Positions 27,077-33,955 of a stretch of 64,000 nucleotides of DNA are shown piece after piece. Made by a program: the position numbers and the translations under genes. How positions within the stretch are numbered: position 1 is the first letter of the stretch; the number at the start of each line of letters is the position of its first letter. Below the pieces are notes generated by a model. That model ran no database searches. It was not told the origin of the DNA and saw only the letters and a list, made by a program, of their open reading frames with translations. Source of the stretch: Vagococcus jeotgali (lineage in GTDB: Bacteria > Bacillota > Bacilli > Lactobacillales > Vagococcaceae); NCBI RefSeq assembly GCF_035918315.1, contig NZ_CP142146.1:1054001-1118000 (forward strand), read 5' to 3'.

Positions 27077-27619
27077 TTATCTTTTATGTTGCTGACGATT
27101 TTTCTTTTTATTAAATTTATTTAATTCTCTTATAATATCTTTTACAATAACAAACATCGGTTTATTATCAACAAAAATTGTAATATCAGCAACTTCTTTA
27201 TAAAGATGCTGACGACTCATATATAAATCATTTAATTCGTTAATTGTTTTCTTTTCTGCTAAAGGACGTTTTCTTCCTCTACTATTTTGAATACGGTGAT
27301 ATAACAAATCAATAGAACCTTTTAAATAAATCACAGTGTCGTGCTCTTTTAGCCAATGAAAGGAATCCTCATAAGTCACAATTCCACCTCCAGTTGACAT
27401 AATAATAGGATGTTTAGTTTGTGTTTGTAGTACTTCATACTCTTTTTTTCTAAAAAAATCTTCGCCATGTTCTTCAAATATATGAACTACACTATCATTG
27501 AGTACTTGTTCAATATATTTATCTGAATCAATAAAAGGAATTTTTAATTGTTTTGATAGTTTTTTTCCAATAGTCGTCTTACCAACACCCATAAACCCCA
27601 CTAAAATAATTCTCTCCAT
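27077..27619 (-). CDS. aroK: Shikimate kinase
   Basis: Phosphorylates shikimate at O3 with ATP, the fifth step to chorismate. The 180-residue protein has P-loop GFMGVGKTT (residues 8-16), DSDKYIE for shikimate and Mg binding, and the GGG loop STGGGIV. Its start directly abuts the aroA stop. A basic tail (KFNKKKNRQQHKR) is longer than usual. Confidence 0.93.
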   Translation of the reverse strand: MERIILVGFMGVGKTTIGKKLSKQLKIPFIDSDKYIEQVLNDSVVHIFEEHGEDFFRKKEYEVLQTQTKHPIIMSTGGGIVTYEDSFHWLKEHDTVIYLKGSIDLLYHRIQNSRGRKRPLAEKKTINELNDLYMSRQHLYKEVADITIFVDNKPMFVIVKDIIRELNKFNKKKNRQQHKR

Positions 27620-28906
27620 TTAACCCTCCATCAATTCTTTTAAATCTTTAAAAAAATTCGGAAAAGACACAGAAACAGCTTGACTTTCTTTTAATATCAC
27701 TGTTTCACTGATTGGCATAGTCAACGCTGTTATTTGTAGCATCATGCCTATACGATGATCACCATGACTAGTTACATTCCCGCCATGCAAAGATTCAACA
27801 CCTTGAATCACCATACCATCTTCTCTTGTTTTTATATTTGCTCCAAGTAAATTTAATTCTCTAGCTACACAATCTATTCTATCTGTTTCTTTTACACGTA
27901 ATTCTTTAGCATCTTTAATCACCGTTTCACCAGTAGCTAAACTTCCTAGTAAAGCAACTAAAGGTAGCTCATCAATAAGACTTGGAATAATATCCCCTGA
28001 AACCTCGATACCTTTTAAAGTACTAGATTTGACTCTTATAGTAGCTGACTCATCCTCAGCTTGATAATCTAATACTTCAATATTGCCACCCATTTTTTTT
28101 ATAACATCAATCAAACCTGTTCTTGTCTTATTCACTCCTACATGTTTGATAATTAAATCACTATCAGGAACTAAAAGTGCTGCTGTGATGAAAAATGCTG
28201 CTGATGAAAAATCCCCTGGCACATGGATTGTTGTACCTTTTAACGCCTGATTACCTGGTATTAAAATTTGGTGGTTTAAATAAGAAATTTTACCACCAAA
28301 TTGTGTTAGCATCACTTCAGTATGATTTCTTGTTGGTTTTTTTTCACTAATGGTAGTAACACCATTAGTGAAAAGGGCAGCAAAAATTATAGCAGACTTT
28401 ACTTGAGCACTAGCTACTGGCATATGGTAGTCTATTGGAGTTAAATTATTTACACCTTTTATTATAATAGGGGCAAATTCAGAATTATCATACCCAAAAA
28501 GAGTTGCACCCATTTCTTCAAGCGGAGTCATGACTCTTTGCATTGGTCTTTTTTGAATCGAGTTATCACCAGTTAAGATATAATTGTAGCCTTGTCCAAC
28601 AAGAATCCCCATAATTAGACGAATTGTCGTTCCTGAATTTCCAACATCAAGAGGTAGCTCTGAAGAAACTAACCCCCTTAACCCAACACCTTCAACTACA
28701 ACCACATCACCATCATCATAGATGTTGACGCCTAGTTGTTTGAAGATAGACAGAGTACTTAGACAATCATCAGCCCTTAGAAAGTTATGTATCCTAGTTT
28801 CACCTTGAGCCAGGCTACCCAACATAATACTTCTATGAGAAATTGATTTATCCCCAGGTACCTCAATAACTCCTACTAGCGGATTTGTTGCTTTTAATAA
28901 TTCCAT
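27620..28906 (-). CDS. aroA: 3-phosphoshikimate 1-carboxyvinyltransferase (EPSP synthase)
   Basis: Condenses shikimate-3-phosphate with PEP. The 428-residue protein has PGDKSISHRSIML near the N-terminus, GNSGTTIRLIMG, and the C-terminal KESQAVSVSFPNFF. The sequence around position 95 (LDVGNSGTT) and the overall pattern fit the class II enzymes common in Gram-positive bacteria. It lies between aroC and aroK. Confidence 0.95.
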   Translation of the reverse strand: MELLKATNPLVGVIEVPGDKSISHRSIMLGSLAQGETRIHNFLRADDCLSTLSIFKQLGVNIYDDGDVVVVEGVGLRGLVSSELPLDVGNSGTTIRLIMGILVGQGYNYILTGDNSIQKRPMQRVMTPLEEMGATLFGYDNSEFAPIIIKGVNNLTPIDYHMPVASAQVKSAIIFAALFTNGVTTISEKKPTRNHTEVMLTQFGGKISYLNHQILIPGNQALKGTTIHVPGDFSSAAFFITAALLVPDSDLIIKHVGVNKTRTGLIDVIKKMGGNIEVLDYQAEDESATIRVKSSTLKGIEVSGDIIPSLIDELPLVALLGSLATGETVIKDAKELRVKETDRIDCVARELNLLGANIKTREDGMVIQGVESLHGGNVTSHGDHRIGMMLQITALTMPISETVILKESQAVSVSFPNFFKDLKELMEG

Positions 28907-28920
28907 GCTTACCTCCTTCT

Positions 28921-30087
28921 TTAGAATTGTCTTGTGTACTCACGATAGTTTTTTATCTCAACAACTAATCTTTCAAATGAATCATGGTCAAATTTATCTA
29001 AAATAGCTTTAGCAACTTCAATTGCAACCATAGCTTCAGCGATAACACAAGCAGCTGGTACAGCTGAGCTGTCTGAGCGCTCTACGCTTGCTTTATAAAT
29101 TTCCTTTGTATCAATATCAACTGATTCTAAGGGTTTGTATAAAGTAGGGATAGGCTTCATCACTCCGCGAATAACAAGAGGCATACCGTTAGTCATCCCA
29201 CCTTCAAATCCACCTAGATGATTACTTTTTCTTGTATATCCTGTTGACTTGTCCCAAATAATTTCATCCATAACTTCACTGCCAAGTTGTCTAGCAACTT
29301 CAAAACCCATACCAAACTCAACACCTTTAAAAGCATTAATACTGACGATAGCTTGGGCTATTTTACCATCTAATTTGCTATCCCACTGATTATAACTTCC
29401 TAAACCTATGGGAACACCACCGACAATAACTTCTACAACCCCACCGATTGTGTTACCAGCTTTTTTAGTCTCATCAATTTTTTCCTTCATAGCTTTTTCA
29501 GTTGTTAAATCAACACACCTCACTTCTGAGGATTCGGCTAACCTTTTGATTTCTTGAATACTCATATTTTCTGGGACATAACCTTTGACTCCACCTATTT
29601 CTAAAACATGACCTACTACATCTATGTCTATGTGTGATAAAAGTTGTTTACATATAGCACCTATTGCCACACGCATAGTTGTTTCTCTAGCAGATGAACG
29701 TTCCAAAACATTACGTAAATCTCGGTGTCCATATTTAATGCCACCGACTAAATCAGCATGACCTGGTCTTGGTTTTGACACTCGTCTCATTTTTTTCATT
29801 TTATCGGGAACATCTTCAACACCCATGACACTCTCCCAATTTTTAAAATCATCATTATTAACGACTAAAGTTACTGGAGATCCAAGTGTTTGACCATGCC
29901 TAATTCCTGAAGTGATTTCTATAGTATCTGTTTCGATTAACATACGCCCGCCTCGGCCATATCCACCCTGACGTCTTTTAAGTTCGTGATTTATCTCTTC
30001 AATAGAAATTGGCATCCCCGCTGGTAAACCTTCAATAATAGCTGTGAGTTGCGGCCCGTGAGATTCACCTGATGTCATATAGCGCAT
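28921..30087 (-). CDS. aroC: Chorismate synthase
   Basis: Converts EPSP to chorismate using reduced FMN. The 388-residue protein has the three family signatures: [21 protein letters not shown] and the RSDSSAVPA stretch. It is in the middle of the aro operon. Confidence 0.96.
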
Positions 30088-30102: not shown

Positions 30103-31161
30103 TTATAAATAATCTTTAAATTTGCTTAGTGGTATTTCCTTCACATAAGCCATACCAATTTCATGTAATAACACTATTTTTATACGATCACCTGTGACTT
30201 TTTTATCATGTAAAATAACATCATACAATCTCTTTGAATTAATGGTTGGTAATTGTATTGGTAAACCAAACTTTGTAAGTAGTTCTGCCAAAGCCGTACT
30301 CGTTTTATGACCCATGTTATGCAATAGTTCATTTTGTCTTGTTATTGTTACCATACCAATTGATACAGCCTCACCATGTGTCACAACACCATAACCTTTA
30401 ATTTGTTCAATCCCATGAGCAATTGTATGTCCAAAATTTAACAGCAAACGCTCTCCGTGGTCAAATTCATCTGCTATAACAGCCGATTTTTTTATTTGAC
30501 AGCACTCATAAATCAACTCATCAGCAACAAGAATACAATCATCTAAACTCTCTAGCTTGCCTAACTTGTCCCAAAGCCTTTTGCTTTTAATAGCAGCGCT
30601 TTTAATTATTTCAGCCAAGCCTTCTTGAATACGCCTGCTATCTAAAGTATTTAAAGTCAACGGATCAATAAATACAGCATCTGGCTGGTAAAAAGTTCCT
30701 ATTAAATTTTTAGCAAAAGTCGTGTTTACTGCTGTTTTACCACCGATGCTACTATCTACCTGGGCTAGGAGTGTCGTTGGTATTTGAATAAAAGATATAC
30801 CCCGCATATAAGTTGATGCTACAAAGCCAGCTAAATCACCTACAACACCACCACCAAGTGCGATGATACCATCAGACCTGGACATATTAATTTGGGCTAA
30901 ATATTCGTATATGGCACTTGCCTGATCTAAAGATTTGCTATTCTCTCCTGGTACAACGGAAAAAATATAAACATCAAATCCTGATTTCTCTAAACTTTCT
31001 TTAACTTCTCTACCGTACAAGGAATCCACTAATTCATCTGTTATGACGACAACTTTTCTATCTCCCCAGATACTTAGCACTCTTTCGCCAATTGAAGATA
31101 AACAATCTTTTTCAATAAGTAAATCATATTGATGATGAGATAAGTCTACTGAAATATTCAT
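30103..31161 (-). CDS. aroB: 3-dehydroquinate synthase
   Basis: Cyclises DAHP to 3-dehydroquinate with NAD and a metal ion. A 352-residue protein with GGGVVGDLAGFVASTYMRG and GGKTAVN; the metal ligands are in the E of EGLAEIIK and the histidines of NFGHTIAHGIE and THGEAVSIG. Second step of the pathway. Confidence 0.96.
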   Translation of the reverse strand: MNISVDLSHHQYDLLIEKDCLSSIGERVLSIWGDRKVVVITDELVDSLYGREVKESLEKSGFDVYIFSVVPGENSKSLDQASAIYEYLAQINMSRSDGIIALGGGVVGDLAGFVASTYMRGISFIQIPTTLLAQVDSSIGGKTAVNTTFAKNLIGTFYQPDAVFIDPLTLNTLDSRRIQEGLAEIIKSAAIKSKRLWDKLGKLESLDDCILVADELIYECCQIKKSAVIADEFDHGERLLLNFGHTIAHGIEQIKGYGVVTHGEAVSIGMVTITRQNELLHNMGHKTSTALAELLTKFGLPIQLPTINSKRLYDVILHDKKVTGDRIKIVLLHEIGMAYVKEIPLSKFKDYL

Positions 31162-31172
31162 AAATTTAACTC

Positions 31173-32207
31173 CTATATATCATTTTGAATGGGCTTAATA
31201 GTTTTCATCGTATCACTTAACACGTCGACCTGAGCCATCATATTTAAATAACGCTTTTCATTTAATGATTGTTGACCATCTGACCACGCTTTTTGAGGTT
31301 CTGGATGAATTTCAACAATCATCCCTGAAGCTCCTGAAGCCACACCTGCCAAAGCCATCGGTGCCACATAATCCCACTCACCAACACCATGAGAAGGGTC
31401 AACAATAATTGGAAAATGACTTAATTTTTGAATGACAGGAACAGCACTTAAATCAAAAGTATTTCGAGTCGCAGTTTCATAGGTGCGTATACCACGCTCA
31501 ACGAAGATTATATTAAAATTACCCTCAGCAACAATATACTCAGCCGCATTTAACCACTCATCAATCGTTCCAGCAATACCACGCTTTAAGGCAACAGGCA
31601 TGCCTGTTTTACCAACGGCTTGCAGTAATTTGAAATTTTGCATATTTCTAGCCCCAATTTGTAAAATATCTGTATATCTTGCAACCAGAGGTAAATTAGC
31701 CTCATCCATTACCTCAGTAATAACTTTTAACCCGTAGTGATCTGCAGCTTTTCTAATATAAATTAAGCCCTCTTCTCCTAAACCTTGAAAGGCATATGGT
31801 GAGGTTCTTGGCTTAAAGGCTCCGCCACGTAGCACTTTAGCGCCACCTTCTTTAGCAATTCTAGCACACTCCATAATTTGTTCTTGACTCTCAATAGAGC
31901 ATGGACCTGCCATAGTAATAAAAGGTTCATTACCACCAATTTTTAATCCAGACACATTGACAATAGAATCGTCAGCTTTAAAATCACGACTGGTCAATTT
32001 ATAAGAATTTTGAGTATGCACAACGTGAGACACTGATTCATACCTTTCAAAAGGAACATCTTTAATTAAACGCGTGTCTCCAATTATACTAATGATAATC
32101 TGCTCGTCCCCTCTAATAACATGATAAGGAAAACCTTCTGATTTGATTCTGTCCTGAACTGCCTTTATTTCTGAGCTTTCTGCTTGTTCTTCCATTATTA
32201 TGATCAT
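31173..32207 (-). CDS. aroF: 3-deoxy-7-phosphoheptulonate synthase
   Basis: Joins PEP and erythrose-4-phosphate, the first committed step. The 344-residue protein is a type I-beta DAHP synthase: an N-terminal ferredoxin-like regulatory part (~1-75, which in relatives gives feedback control by aromatic amino acids) and the barrel with AGPCSIES, KPRTSPYAFQG and DPSHGVG. It overlaps the aroE stop by ATGA. No separate chorismate mutase domain is seen. Confidence 0.94.
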   Translation of the reverse strand: MIIIMEEQAESSEIKAVQDRIKSEGFPYHVIRGDEQIIISIIGDTRLIKDVPFERYESVSHVVHTQNSYKLTSRDFKADDSIVNVSGLKIGGNEPFITMAGPCSIESQEQIMECARIAKEGGAKVLRGGAFKPRTSPYAFQGLGEEGLIYIRKAADHYGLKVITEVMDEANLPLVARYTDILQIGARNMQNFKLLQAVGKTGMPVALKRGIAGTIDEWLNAAEYIVAEGNFNIIFVERGIRTYETATRNTFDLSAVPVIQKLSHFPIIVDPSHGVGEWDYVAPMALAGVASGASGMIVEIHPEPQKAWSDGQQSLNEKRYLNMMAQVDVLSDTMKTIKPIQNDI

Positions 32208-33100
32208 GATGTTGACCCCTCTTTGTATAGTTTTCTCTTCACTGTCTCTTCAATATTACTTACTGACATATCACTACCAGTCCATATGTTAAAAGCCTCA
32301 GCTGCTTGATACAAAAGTATACCTAAACCGTTTATTGTGTGACAGCCTCTTTTTTTAGCTCCCTTTAGAAAAAGAGTTTCTTGTGGTTGATAAATCAAAT
32401 CAACTACTACTTGGTTTTTCTCTAAAATGGACAAGTCATTAATCGGCATCGCTTCTTCTAAATGTCCCATTCCAATATTTGTACAATTCACAATAATATC
32501 ACTGTTTTTTATTTTATGATTCAGATTTAAATGATCTTCATAAGGAAAAACACGAATAGGAATATGACATTTTTCTGACATACCTTTAAAATAGTTACAT
32601 ACTTCTTGAAAAGTTCTATTTTTTCTTTTAAAAATGATAATCTCTTTAACATGATTTTGACACAGCTGGTAAGCAACTGCTTTAGAGGCACCACCTGCAC
32701 CTAGTAAAACCACTCGTTGATTAGCAAGCTGTATATTCTCTGCTTCTAAACTCCTAACAAATCCAATACCATCTGTGTTGTATCCAATTAACACATCATC
32801 TCGGTTCAAAATAGTATTAATTGCTCCTATAAACTCAGCTTCTGGCGATAACTCATCCATATAACTTAAGGCTTTTTCTTTATACGGCATTGAAAGATTA
32901 AGACCACCTATATTTAAAGCTTGAATACTCTTCATAGCAGCATCAAACTCATTTGGCTCTACATCAAAAGCTAAATACCTAGCATCAATATCATTGTCTA
33001 AAAATGATTGATTATGTAAAAATGGTGACAAGCTATGCTTAATCGGATGAGCAAAAATACCATAAAGTTGTGTTCTACCACCTATTTTTTGTGTTTCCAT
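32204..33100 (-). CDS. aroE: Shikimate dehydrogenase
   Basis: Reduces 3-dehydroshikimate with NADPH. The 298-residue protein has the substrate motif FAHPIKHSLSPFLHN, catalytic lysine in LNLSMPYKEKAL and the nucleotide fold VVLLGAGGASKAVAY. First gene of the aro operon, following the attenuator-like leader. Confidence 0.94.
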   Translation of the reverse strand: METQKIGGRTQLYGIFAHPIKHSLSPFLHNQSFLDNDIDARYLAFDVEPNEFDAAMKSIQALNIGGLNLSMPYKEKALSYMDELSPEAEFIGAINTILNRDDVLIGYNTDGIGFVRSLEAENIQLANQRVVLLGAGGASKAVAYQLCQNHVKEIIIFKRKNRTFQEVCNYFKGMSEKCHIPIRVFPYEDHLNLNHKIKNSDIIVNCTNIGMGHLEEAMPINDLSILEKNQVVVDLIYQPQETLFLKGAKKRGCHTINGLGILLYQAAEAFNIWTGSDMSVSNIEETVKRKLYKEGSTS

Positions 33101-33120
33101 TTATTTATCCTATCACCTTT

Positions 33121-33295
33121 CCATAAAAAAACGACGATTTATGAGAAAAAACTTCTCTCACACTATCGTCGTTAAAAACTTAAACTCTATCACAAAGTAA
33201 TATTTAATTAACTAACCCTTTAACGACCTGTCAAGTCTTACTTTGCCTACTACTATTTACTTTAATAACTGTCTTTATCAAAGATTATATGATTG
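33121..33295 (-). promoter_or_regulatory. Structured attenuator-like leader of the aro operon
   Basis: About 190 nt separate the promoter from aroE. The transcript ends in a strong terminator: stem AACGACGAT/ATCGTCGTT (33165-33173 with 33130-33138) with an inner TGAGA/TCTCA stem and seven T. Upstream, GTCGTTAAA (33219-33227) is complementary over nine bases to TTTAACGAC (33168-33176), which overlaps the terminator's 5' arm, so the two pairings exclude each other. A further pairing, CAAAGTAA (33238-33245) with TTACTTTG (33193-33200), encloses the antiterminator strand. No T-box motif and no leader peptide rich in aromatic codons were found. A ligand or protein sensor is inference. Confidence 0.7.
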
Positions 33296-33300
33296 CTAAA

Positions 33301-33329
33301 ATTATAGCTATAAAATCAAGCTATGTCAA
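33301..33329 (-). promoter_or_regulatory. Promoter of the aro operon
   Basis: Perfect TTGACA (33324-33329), a 17-bp spacer and perfect TATAAT (33301-33306). Confidence 0.92.
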
Positions 33330-33368
33330 ACACGACCTACATTTTAGCCATAGGAAACCAATAAAAAA

Positions 33369-33389
33369 AGCACTCTTTAAGAGTGCTTT
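33369..33389 (-). terminator. Terminator of efp
   Basis: The stem AAGCACTCTT / AAGAGTGCTT is followed by seven T on the minus strand, directly after the efp stop codon. Confidence 0.9.
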
Positions 33390-33394
33390 CATAA

Positions 33395-33955
33395 TTATTT
33401 TGCACGGCGAACATAGTCACCATTTGACGTGTTGATTTCTAGTTTTTCTCCTGTTTCAATAAAGTCAGGAACACTTACAACTAAACCTGTCTCCATCACT
33501 GCTGGTTTACCAGAGCCTGACACAGTAGCTCCTTTAATTGAAGGTTGAGTTTCAGCAACTGTCAAAATAACTGTTGTTGGTAAAGAAACACCTACAACTT
33601 CTGATTCGTAAAATTGAATTGATACTTCCATATTATCCAATAAGAATTTTAATTCTTCTTTAATAACTTCAACTGGAATTTCATATTGTTCATACGTCGT
33701 TAAATCCATAAAAGTAGCTACATCATCTTGAATATATAGATATTGAACATCTTTTGTATCAATATGTGCTTTTTTTACTTTTTCATCAGGTCTCATAGTT
33801 GTTTCAGTAGTTGCACCTGAGCGTAGATCTTTTAATTTCATACGCATAACTGTATTACCTTTACCTGGCTTATGATGACTAGCATCTAAAACTTTAATTA
33901 GTTTACCATCTTTTTCAAATGTCATTCCTGCTCTTAAATCTCCAACTGATATCAT
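33395..33955 (-). CDS. efp: Elongation factor P
   Basis: Relieves ribosome stalling at polyproline. The 186-residue protein has the modification-loop region [15 protein letters not shown] with lysine at the tip, as in Firmicutes EF-P. AAGGGAG precedes the start. It is monocistronic with its own terminator. Confidence 0.96.

Follow-up and report, generated by a model that had tools for sequence, protein, structure and literature searches.

A probable on/off RNA leader before the shikimate operon of Vagococcus jeotgali, and the Phe/Tyr peptide leaders of its relatives

Introduction

What kind of control acts on a shikimate operon whose leader carries a switchable terminator with neither a T-box nor a leader peptide? 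The window, that is, the whole 64-kb stretch of DNA analysed here, carries such an operon on its minus strand, composed of aroE (shikimate dehydrogenase, 32204..33100), the DAHP synthase gene aroF (31173..32207), aroB (30103..31161), aroC (28921..30087), aroA (27620..28906) and aroK (27077..27619). An earlier note on this DNA had proposed that the stretch upstream of aroE could be an undescribed riboswitch or a protein-controlled attenuator. Firmicutes leader peptides are known, and so is the replacement of one sensing system by another upstream of a given gene (PMC2965389, in excerpt). In this work, judging from sequence and predicted folding, we find that a genuine RNA switch, turning the shikimate genes on or off, probably lies in front of them, and ask what it may have descended from and what, if anything, it may sense.

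Results

Architecture of the leader

The leader lies upstream of aroE on the minus strand and measures about 170 nt. It is preceded by a sigma-70-type promoter at 33301..33329, in which the -35 box TTGACA (33329-33324) and the -10 box TATAAT (33306-33301) are separated by a 17-nt spacer, and ends with a strong intrinsic terminator at 33125..33173, the arms of which (33173-33165 and 33138-33130) are followed by a T run to 33125. Between them, folding places a 5′ hairpin P0 (33260..33283), a stem P1 (33192..33246; arms 33246-33238 and 33200-33192, with an 8-bp core of 33245-33238 and 33200-33193), and an antiterminator, whose 5′ strand (33217..33227) is enclosed by P1 and whose 3′ strand (33168..33178) overlaps the terminator 5′ arm. 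The antiterminator core joins 33227-33219 to 33176-33168 through nine Watson-Crick pairs, and the fold lengthens it to 33227-33217 and 33178-33168 with two G-U pairs included. The sequence and the fold therefore bear out what the earlier note had said of the consensus promoter, of the mutually exclusive terminator and nine-base antiterminator, and of a third pairing, P1, that encloses the antiterminator strand in an a-b-a′-b′ order. With a promoter and mutually exclusive antiterminator and terminator before a gene, the leader can be classed, on sequence and computed folds alone, as a general transcription attenuator.

No ATG-led open reading frame was found in the leader, and the earlier statement that no ATG-led peptide with Phe, Tyr or Trp codons is present thus holds. 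An ATT-led frame with Tyr and Phe codons, (I)KYYFVIEFKFLTTIV*, does exist at 33158..33208 on the minus strand behind a weak Shine-Dalgarno (SD) sequence, and from its reading frame and a match to the relatives' leader model R2 it may be a remnant of a peptide-coding stretch or a chance occurrence.

Folding and chance

The whole leader folds better than all of 200 dinucleotide shuffles (z -3.3), a score to which the terminator alone contributes. When the 121 nt preceding the terminator arm were shuffled 2000 times with dinucleotides preserved, the arm could form at least nine Watson-Crick pairs with the shuffled sequence in two cases; some self stem of 8 bp, the length of P1, arose in 277, and both pairings in crossing order in none. 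Among 365 natural terminators from the window and 80 loci, a 9-nt upstream match was present in four, the window's own included, and a looser energy test of the window antiterminator gave p = 0.045 (200 shuffles). Therefore, the antiterminator is credible, and P1 by itself is weak, such stems being common in shuffles. The energy tests were mixed for the antiterminators of other peptide-less leaders, with p from 0.02 to 0.48 in the family of the window's genome (f1) and from 0.07 to 0.70 in an Enterococcus genus code (g33); a new antiterminator is therefore no general rule.

In nested folds, the antiterminator state (-22.1 kcal/mol) outcompetes the P1 state (-18.9 kcal/mol) for the RNA ending at 33165, and the terminator state (-39.5 kcal/mol) outcompetes the antiterminator state (-33.4 kcal/mol) at full length. 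With pseudoknots left out of the computation, the best fold of the growing RNA has P1 at first, the antiterminator at an intermediate length and the terminator at the end. During transcription, P1 would form first, the antiterminator would displace it, and the terminator would then compete with the antiterminator.

Searches in databases and relatives

At gathering scores no Rfam family matched in the window, and relaxing the threshold to E 10 yielded 11 weak matches in the leader stretch, to no plausible family. The T-box model (RF00230) found nothing in the leader stretch at either setting, which agrees with the absence of a T-box consensus claimed before. RF02863, the family that is taken up below, did not match the leader stretch even with E values as high as 10 admitted, nor the window's own genome under strict filters.

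The earlier note had named a lack of conservation in relatives as refuting its proposal. By that criterion the result goes against the proposal, since the leader is in no relative among the 148 genomes searched by DNA or the 60 searched with a covariance model, although this sample includes no close relative. By DNA, 145 of the 148 genomes matched somewhere at E 1 or below; beyond the own genome all matches were short pieces, none spanning the leader, and the best of them (E 2.7e-4) covered 41 bases around the aroE start. A covariance model of the leader, run with strict filters, matched its own locus alone. No second copy turned up in the own genome in DNA or model searches, the leader was not found in viral contigs, and the peptide-less leaders of other groups, read by eye, lack the structure of the window leader. 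The nearest named AroE is 49% identical to that of the window, and AroE from the genus code's 13 remaining genomes is 42-47% identical.

The Phe/Tyr peptide leader of the relatives

A different aro leader is present in 20 of the 29 f1 genomes, among them every other member of the genus code (13 genomes). Its peptide terminates with NNYYFSYFR or something close to it, its strands, an antiterminator among them, can pair in alternative ways, and it has two terminators; this peptide type precedes aroE in 34 of 80 named AroE loci, many of the others being from distant bacteria. In an alignment of 41 of the 56 peptide-type leaders found, aro and transporter copies together, standard pairing holds in 34 to 41 rows for A:B (in 41/41 for 8 of 11 pairs), 33 to 41 for B:C, 30 to 41 for C:D and 24 to 41 for D:E, and the peptide-coding stretch keeps its pairs with C in 30 to 41 of the 41 rows. 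These conserved pairs are consistency more than covariation, as there is little variation and the helices were picked by eye from the same sequences. If this is a classic attenuator, a ribosome stalled on the Tyr/Phe codons would leave A free, so that A:B forms, C:D pairs and no first terminator arises, while a ribosome at the stop codon would cover A, so that B:C pairs and the terminator is made. The two terminators would be coupled if the first, through its 3′ arm, binds the 5′ arm of the second, and before aroE in peptide-bearing loci (L032-L059, L174-L193) they may act as a relay.

The relatives' leader resembles RF02863 (‘Enterococcus sRNA 2410’, sRNA_2410), which is filed as an sRNA and which we read as a Phe/Tyr leader-peptide attenuator. 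RF02863 scores over cut-off at two of nine loci and, counted by genome, in 32 of 118. With the threshold at E 0.01 this rises to 70 of the 118, the own genome not among them. Of 20 RF02863 places fetched, 16 lie ahead of ABC-transporter substrate-binding proteins of a single kind (classed by eye), three precede aroE and one another transporter-like protein (L178). Its source paper describes a putative E. faecium sRNA with two transcripts on Northern blots (PMC5593968), and among the open-licence papers that literature searches turned up, none describes it in its title or abstract opening as an aro-gene attenuator. These observations suggest that RF02863, filed as an sRNA, may be a leader-peptide attenuator before aro operons and an ABC transporter gene. 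Related-looking aroE leader peptides that contain Trp as well are seen in lactobacilli (L097, FYYYWFMK*; L115, RFSYYWLK*; L130, RFSYYWSK*).

Traces of descent in the window leader

Against a profile of 16 relatives' aro leaders, which leaves out one locus (L059) with no promoter found, the best match of the window is 33329-33284 with E 0.46, which is not significant; CAAT five bases past the -10 box is common to the window and 12 of the 16. The leader model R2, run against 33000-33450 with filters off, gave a best local match of 18 bases (7.8 bits, E 0.048), and also a similar chance-like match on the other strand (E 0.24). Judged by eye, the window terminator resembles the second terminator of the relatives, of which it may be a descendant. 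Position, promoter and CAAT, and the 18-base resemblance at E 0.048 hint at a possible descent from the old peptide leader, against which stand the non-significant E 0.46 of the whole profile and the chance-like match on the other strand.

Peptide leaders go with tyrA and pheA

Where relatives carry the peptide leader, the genes run aroE-aroF-aroB-aroC-tyrA-aroA-aroK-pheA. The window operon has aroC-aroA and aroK-lytR junctions instead, without tyrA after aroC and with a LytR-family gene in the place of pheA after aroK, and tblastn found no match to tyrA or pheA within the 64-kb window; elsewhere in the genome, one dehydrogenase-like match reaches 24.8 bits, below the cut-off of 26.5.

The same association holds across f1, where prephenate dehydrogenase (PF02153) is over cut-off in 20 and prephenate dehydratase (PF00800) in 19 of the 29 genomes. 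The peptide-bearing genomes have PF02153 in 20/20 and PF00800 in 19/20, the exception (G018) being a draft of 82% completeness with a contig that stops roughly 1 kb beyond tyrA, whereas all nine peptide-less genomes (the own genome, G016, G017, G019, G021, G023, G024, G026 and G027) lack both over cut-off. One genome (G010) has a second aroE copy (L041) without leader or operon and was scored by the operon copy.

Outside the family, tyrA and pheA are in the operon at 15/15 loci with the peptide and at 0/18 without, absence here meaning absence within the 8-12 kb fetched per locus. These 33 loci, from 32 genomes, remain of 40 fetched after seven that repeat the family, and were drawn from AroE matches with E up to 1e-70 (68 of 395 genomes), minus 13 f4 genomes and G057, plus four genomes picked by RF02863; 4 of the 15 peptide-bearing loci were accordingly chosen for RF02863 matches. 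The 18 peptide-less loci include four aroE copies without a full aro operon behind (L229-L232) and eight g33 loci in which aroE and lytR are the sole ones found of the queried genes. At these eight Enterococcus loci (L204-L208, L212, L213, L216) a predicted terminator is kept before aroE.

An AroE tree needs four changes among 58 rows, or five with the off-operon copies; on well supported branches it yields only one independent pair, and two forced changes with all 63 rows. The tree is too weak for safe loss counting, and the counts that link the peptide to tyrA/pheA are uncorrected for kinship; a Fisher value for the association was set aside for the same reason. Both states occur within each of the genus codes g1, g4 and g5, and all 14 fetched g33 genomes are peptide-less, which suggests four or more peptide losses if those genera are natural. 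A predicted terminator stands before aroE in all peptide-less leaders examined of f1 (9/9) and g33 (14/14), while in genomes further removed many aroE loci without the peptide have none.

Other leaders in the own genome

The sole R2 match in the own genome (G000:C1:461323-461447, L195; 68 bits) is a damaged leader with the peptide MIKSNLYKPTQLNNFFFSFFR* and without the antiterminator strand C, behind which a transporter operon lies in fragments, as judged by eye. RF02863 missed it under strict filters and R2 found it. The genome also carries an intact-looking trpB motif (RF04312, 62.8 bits against a cut-off of 59; L194) upstream of G000:C1 895634-896494 on the minus strand, before a PF04392 transporter protein (family by eye). 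This Trp-type leader has a peptide ending in KAWQPWRR* with an ATG start and a strong SD, and it gave a weak R2 match of 33.9 bits in one search and was unlisted in the genome-wide R2 search. T-boxes (RF00230) have 14 matches in the own genome (L061-L074), seven of them over cut-off; by eye they mostly precede aminoacyl-tRNA synthetases, and none was seen before aro or trp genes.

Discussion

Based on these findings, we lean, by a little more than an even judgement, towards a rebuilt attenuator that replaced a Phe/Tyr sensor lost together with Phe/Tyr synthesis, in which the promoter and terminator were kept and the antiterminator is new. Since tyrA and pheA have been lost in this lineage, Phe/Tyr control of the operon would be useless; the peptide and the first terminator would have gone, the promoter and the terminator next to aroE would have been retained, and the new antiterminator would offset the retained terminator. 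How much of the RNA is read through would then depend for the most part on folding and on the timing of the polymerase, with no dedicated sensor of aromatic amino acids. It speaks against this reading that P1 has no obvious use in a device that is purely passive.

A ligand or a protein might instead stabilise P1 or the pseudoknot and thereby tip the choice between the antiterminator and the terminator. Such a new riboswitch or protein-bound switch would account for the a-b-a′-b′ order, the three-state folding, the lack of any Rfam match and the crossing of both pairings in none of 2000 shuffles; it is distinctly unlikely, as no homologue was found in 148 genomes by DNA or 60 by the strict model, nor a second copy in the own genome, P1 alone is common in shuffles, and no conserved loop is demonstrable. 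Of the earlier proposal, the switchable terminator in the aro leader is supported, and the undescribed riboswitch or protein-controlled attenuator is not, the leader occurring in no searched relative. That a new pseudoknotted switch senses another chorismate product, for instance a folate or menaquinone precursor, the sensor having been swapped before the same operon, we hold to be quite improbable. It is unlikely, if worth serious thought, that the leader is vestigial, with promoter and terminator as leftovers, the antiterminator as a chance match and the operon living on partial readthrough. The damage in the one R2-matched leader of this genome, the p = 0.045 of the looser energy test and the weakness of P1 fit such decay, but the antiterminator match arose in just 2 of 2000 shuffles, and predicted terminators persist in 23/23 peptide-less f1 and g33 leaders, whereas many distant loci have none.

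The ATT-led frame invites the further reading of a leader-peptide attenuator with a rare start, in which a ribosome stalled on the Tyr/Phe codons of (I)KYYFVIEFKFLTTIV*, located on the P1 3′ arm, would open P1. It has an SD-like AAAGGG at a fitting distance and resembles the relatives' peptide-coding stretch at E 0.048. We nevertheless regard it as very improbable: ATT start codons are rare, the Trp leader of the same genome has ATG and a strong SD, frames in these leaders often have four aromatics within eight codons, and the antiterminator would need to bridge the stalled ribosome.

The lack of both T-box and leader peptide is simpler to explain in the light of the relatives, because loss of the peptide accompanies loss of tyrA and pheA; an absent T-box and an absent ATG-led peptide are by themselves no evidence for a riboswitch. 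A regulatory leader may thus be lost or rebuilt when the branch that it served goes, the same pattern being seen in several genus codes, and a testable rule follows, namely that the peptide leader is present where tyrA and pheA are present.

Among known systems, the RF02863-type aro leader of Vagococcus and Enterococcus shares with the window leader the site before aroE, a similar promoter and the competition of antiterminator and terminator, although the window leader lacks an ATG-led peptide (having only the ATT-led KYYF frame), the conserved strands and the first terminator. The T-box (RF00230) is likewise an antiterminator/terminator switch upstream of amino-acid genes, but its model has no match here. 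The a-b-a′-b′ strand order is that of H-type pseudoknot riboswitches, e.g. preQ1-II and SAM-II; the window leader shares this order, with about 18 nt between its stems and no Rfam match. By their published descriptions, as far as the excerpts go, two further motifs invite comparison. The uORFC-13-1 motif before aroF in Acholeplasma is also a candidate attenuator with a terminator before a shikimate-pathway gene, and has an upstream ORF with Phe codons (PMC8632094). The opuB motif riboswitch, whose ligand is said to be relevant to shikimate or aromatic amino acid use, is alike in possible shikimate-related RNA sensing and differs from the window leader in occurring mostly in Enterobacteriaceae and acting at the SD (PMC11109978). 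The trpB motif (RF04312) is, like the window leader, an antiterminator/terminator leader of the same genome, but the window leader has no match to it and the trpB copy has a Trp-coding peptide. The published description presents this motif as a strong candidate for a riboswitch and also allows a classic attenuator (PMC11109978); its copy in the own genome overlaps the Trp-codon leader, and may be a Trp leader-peptide attenuator, not a riboswitch.
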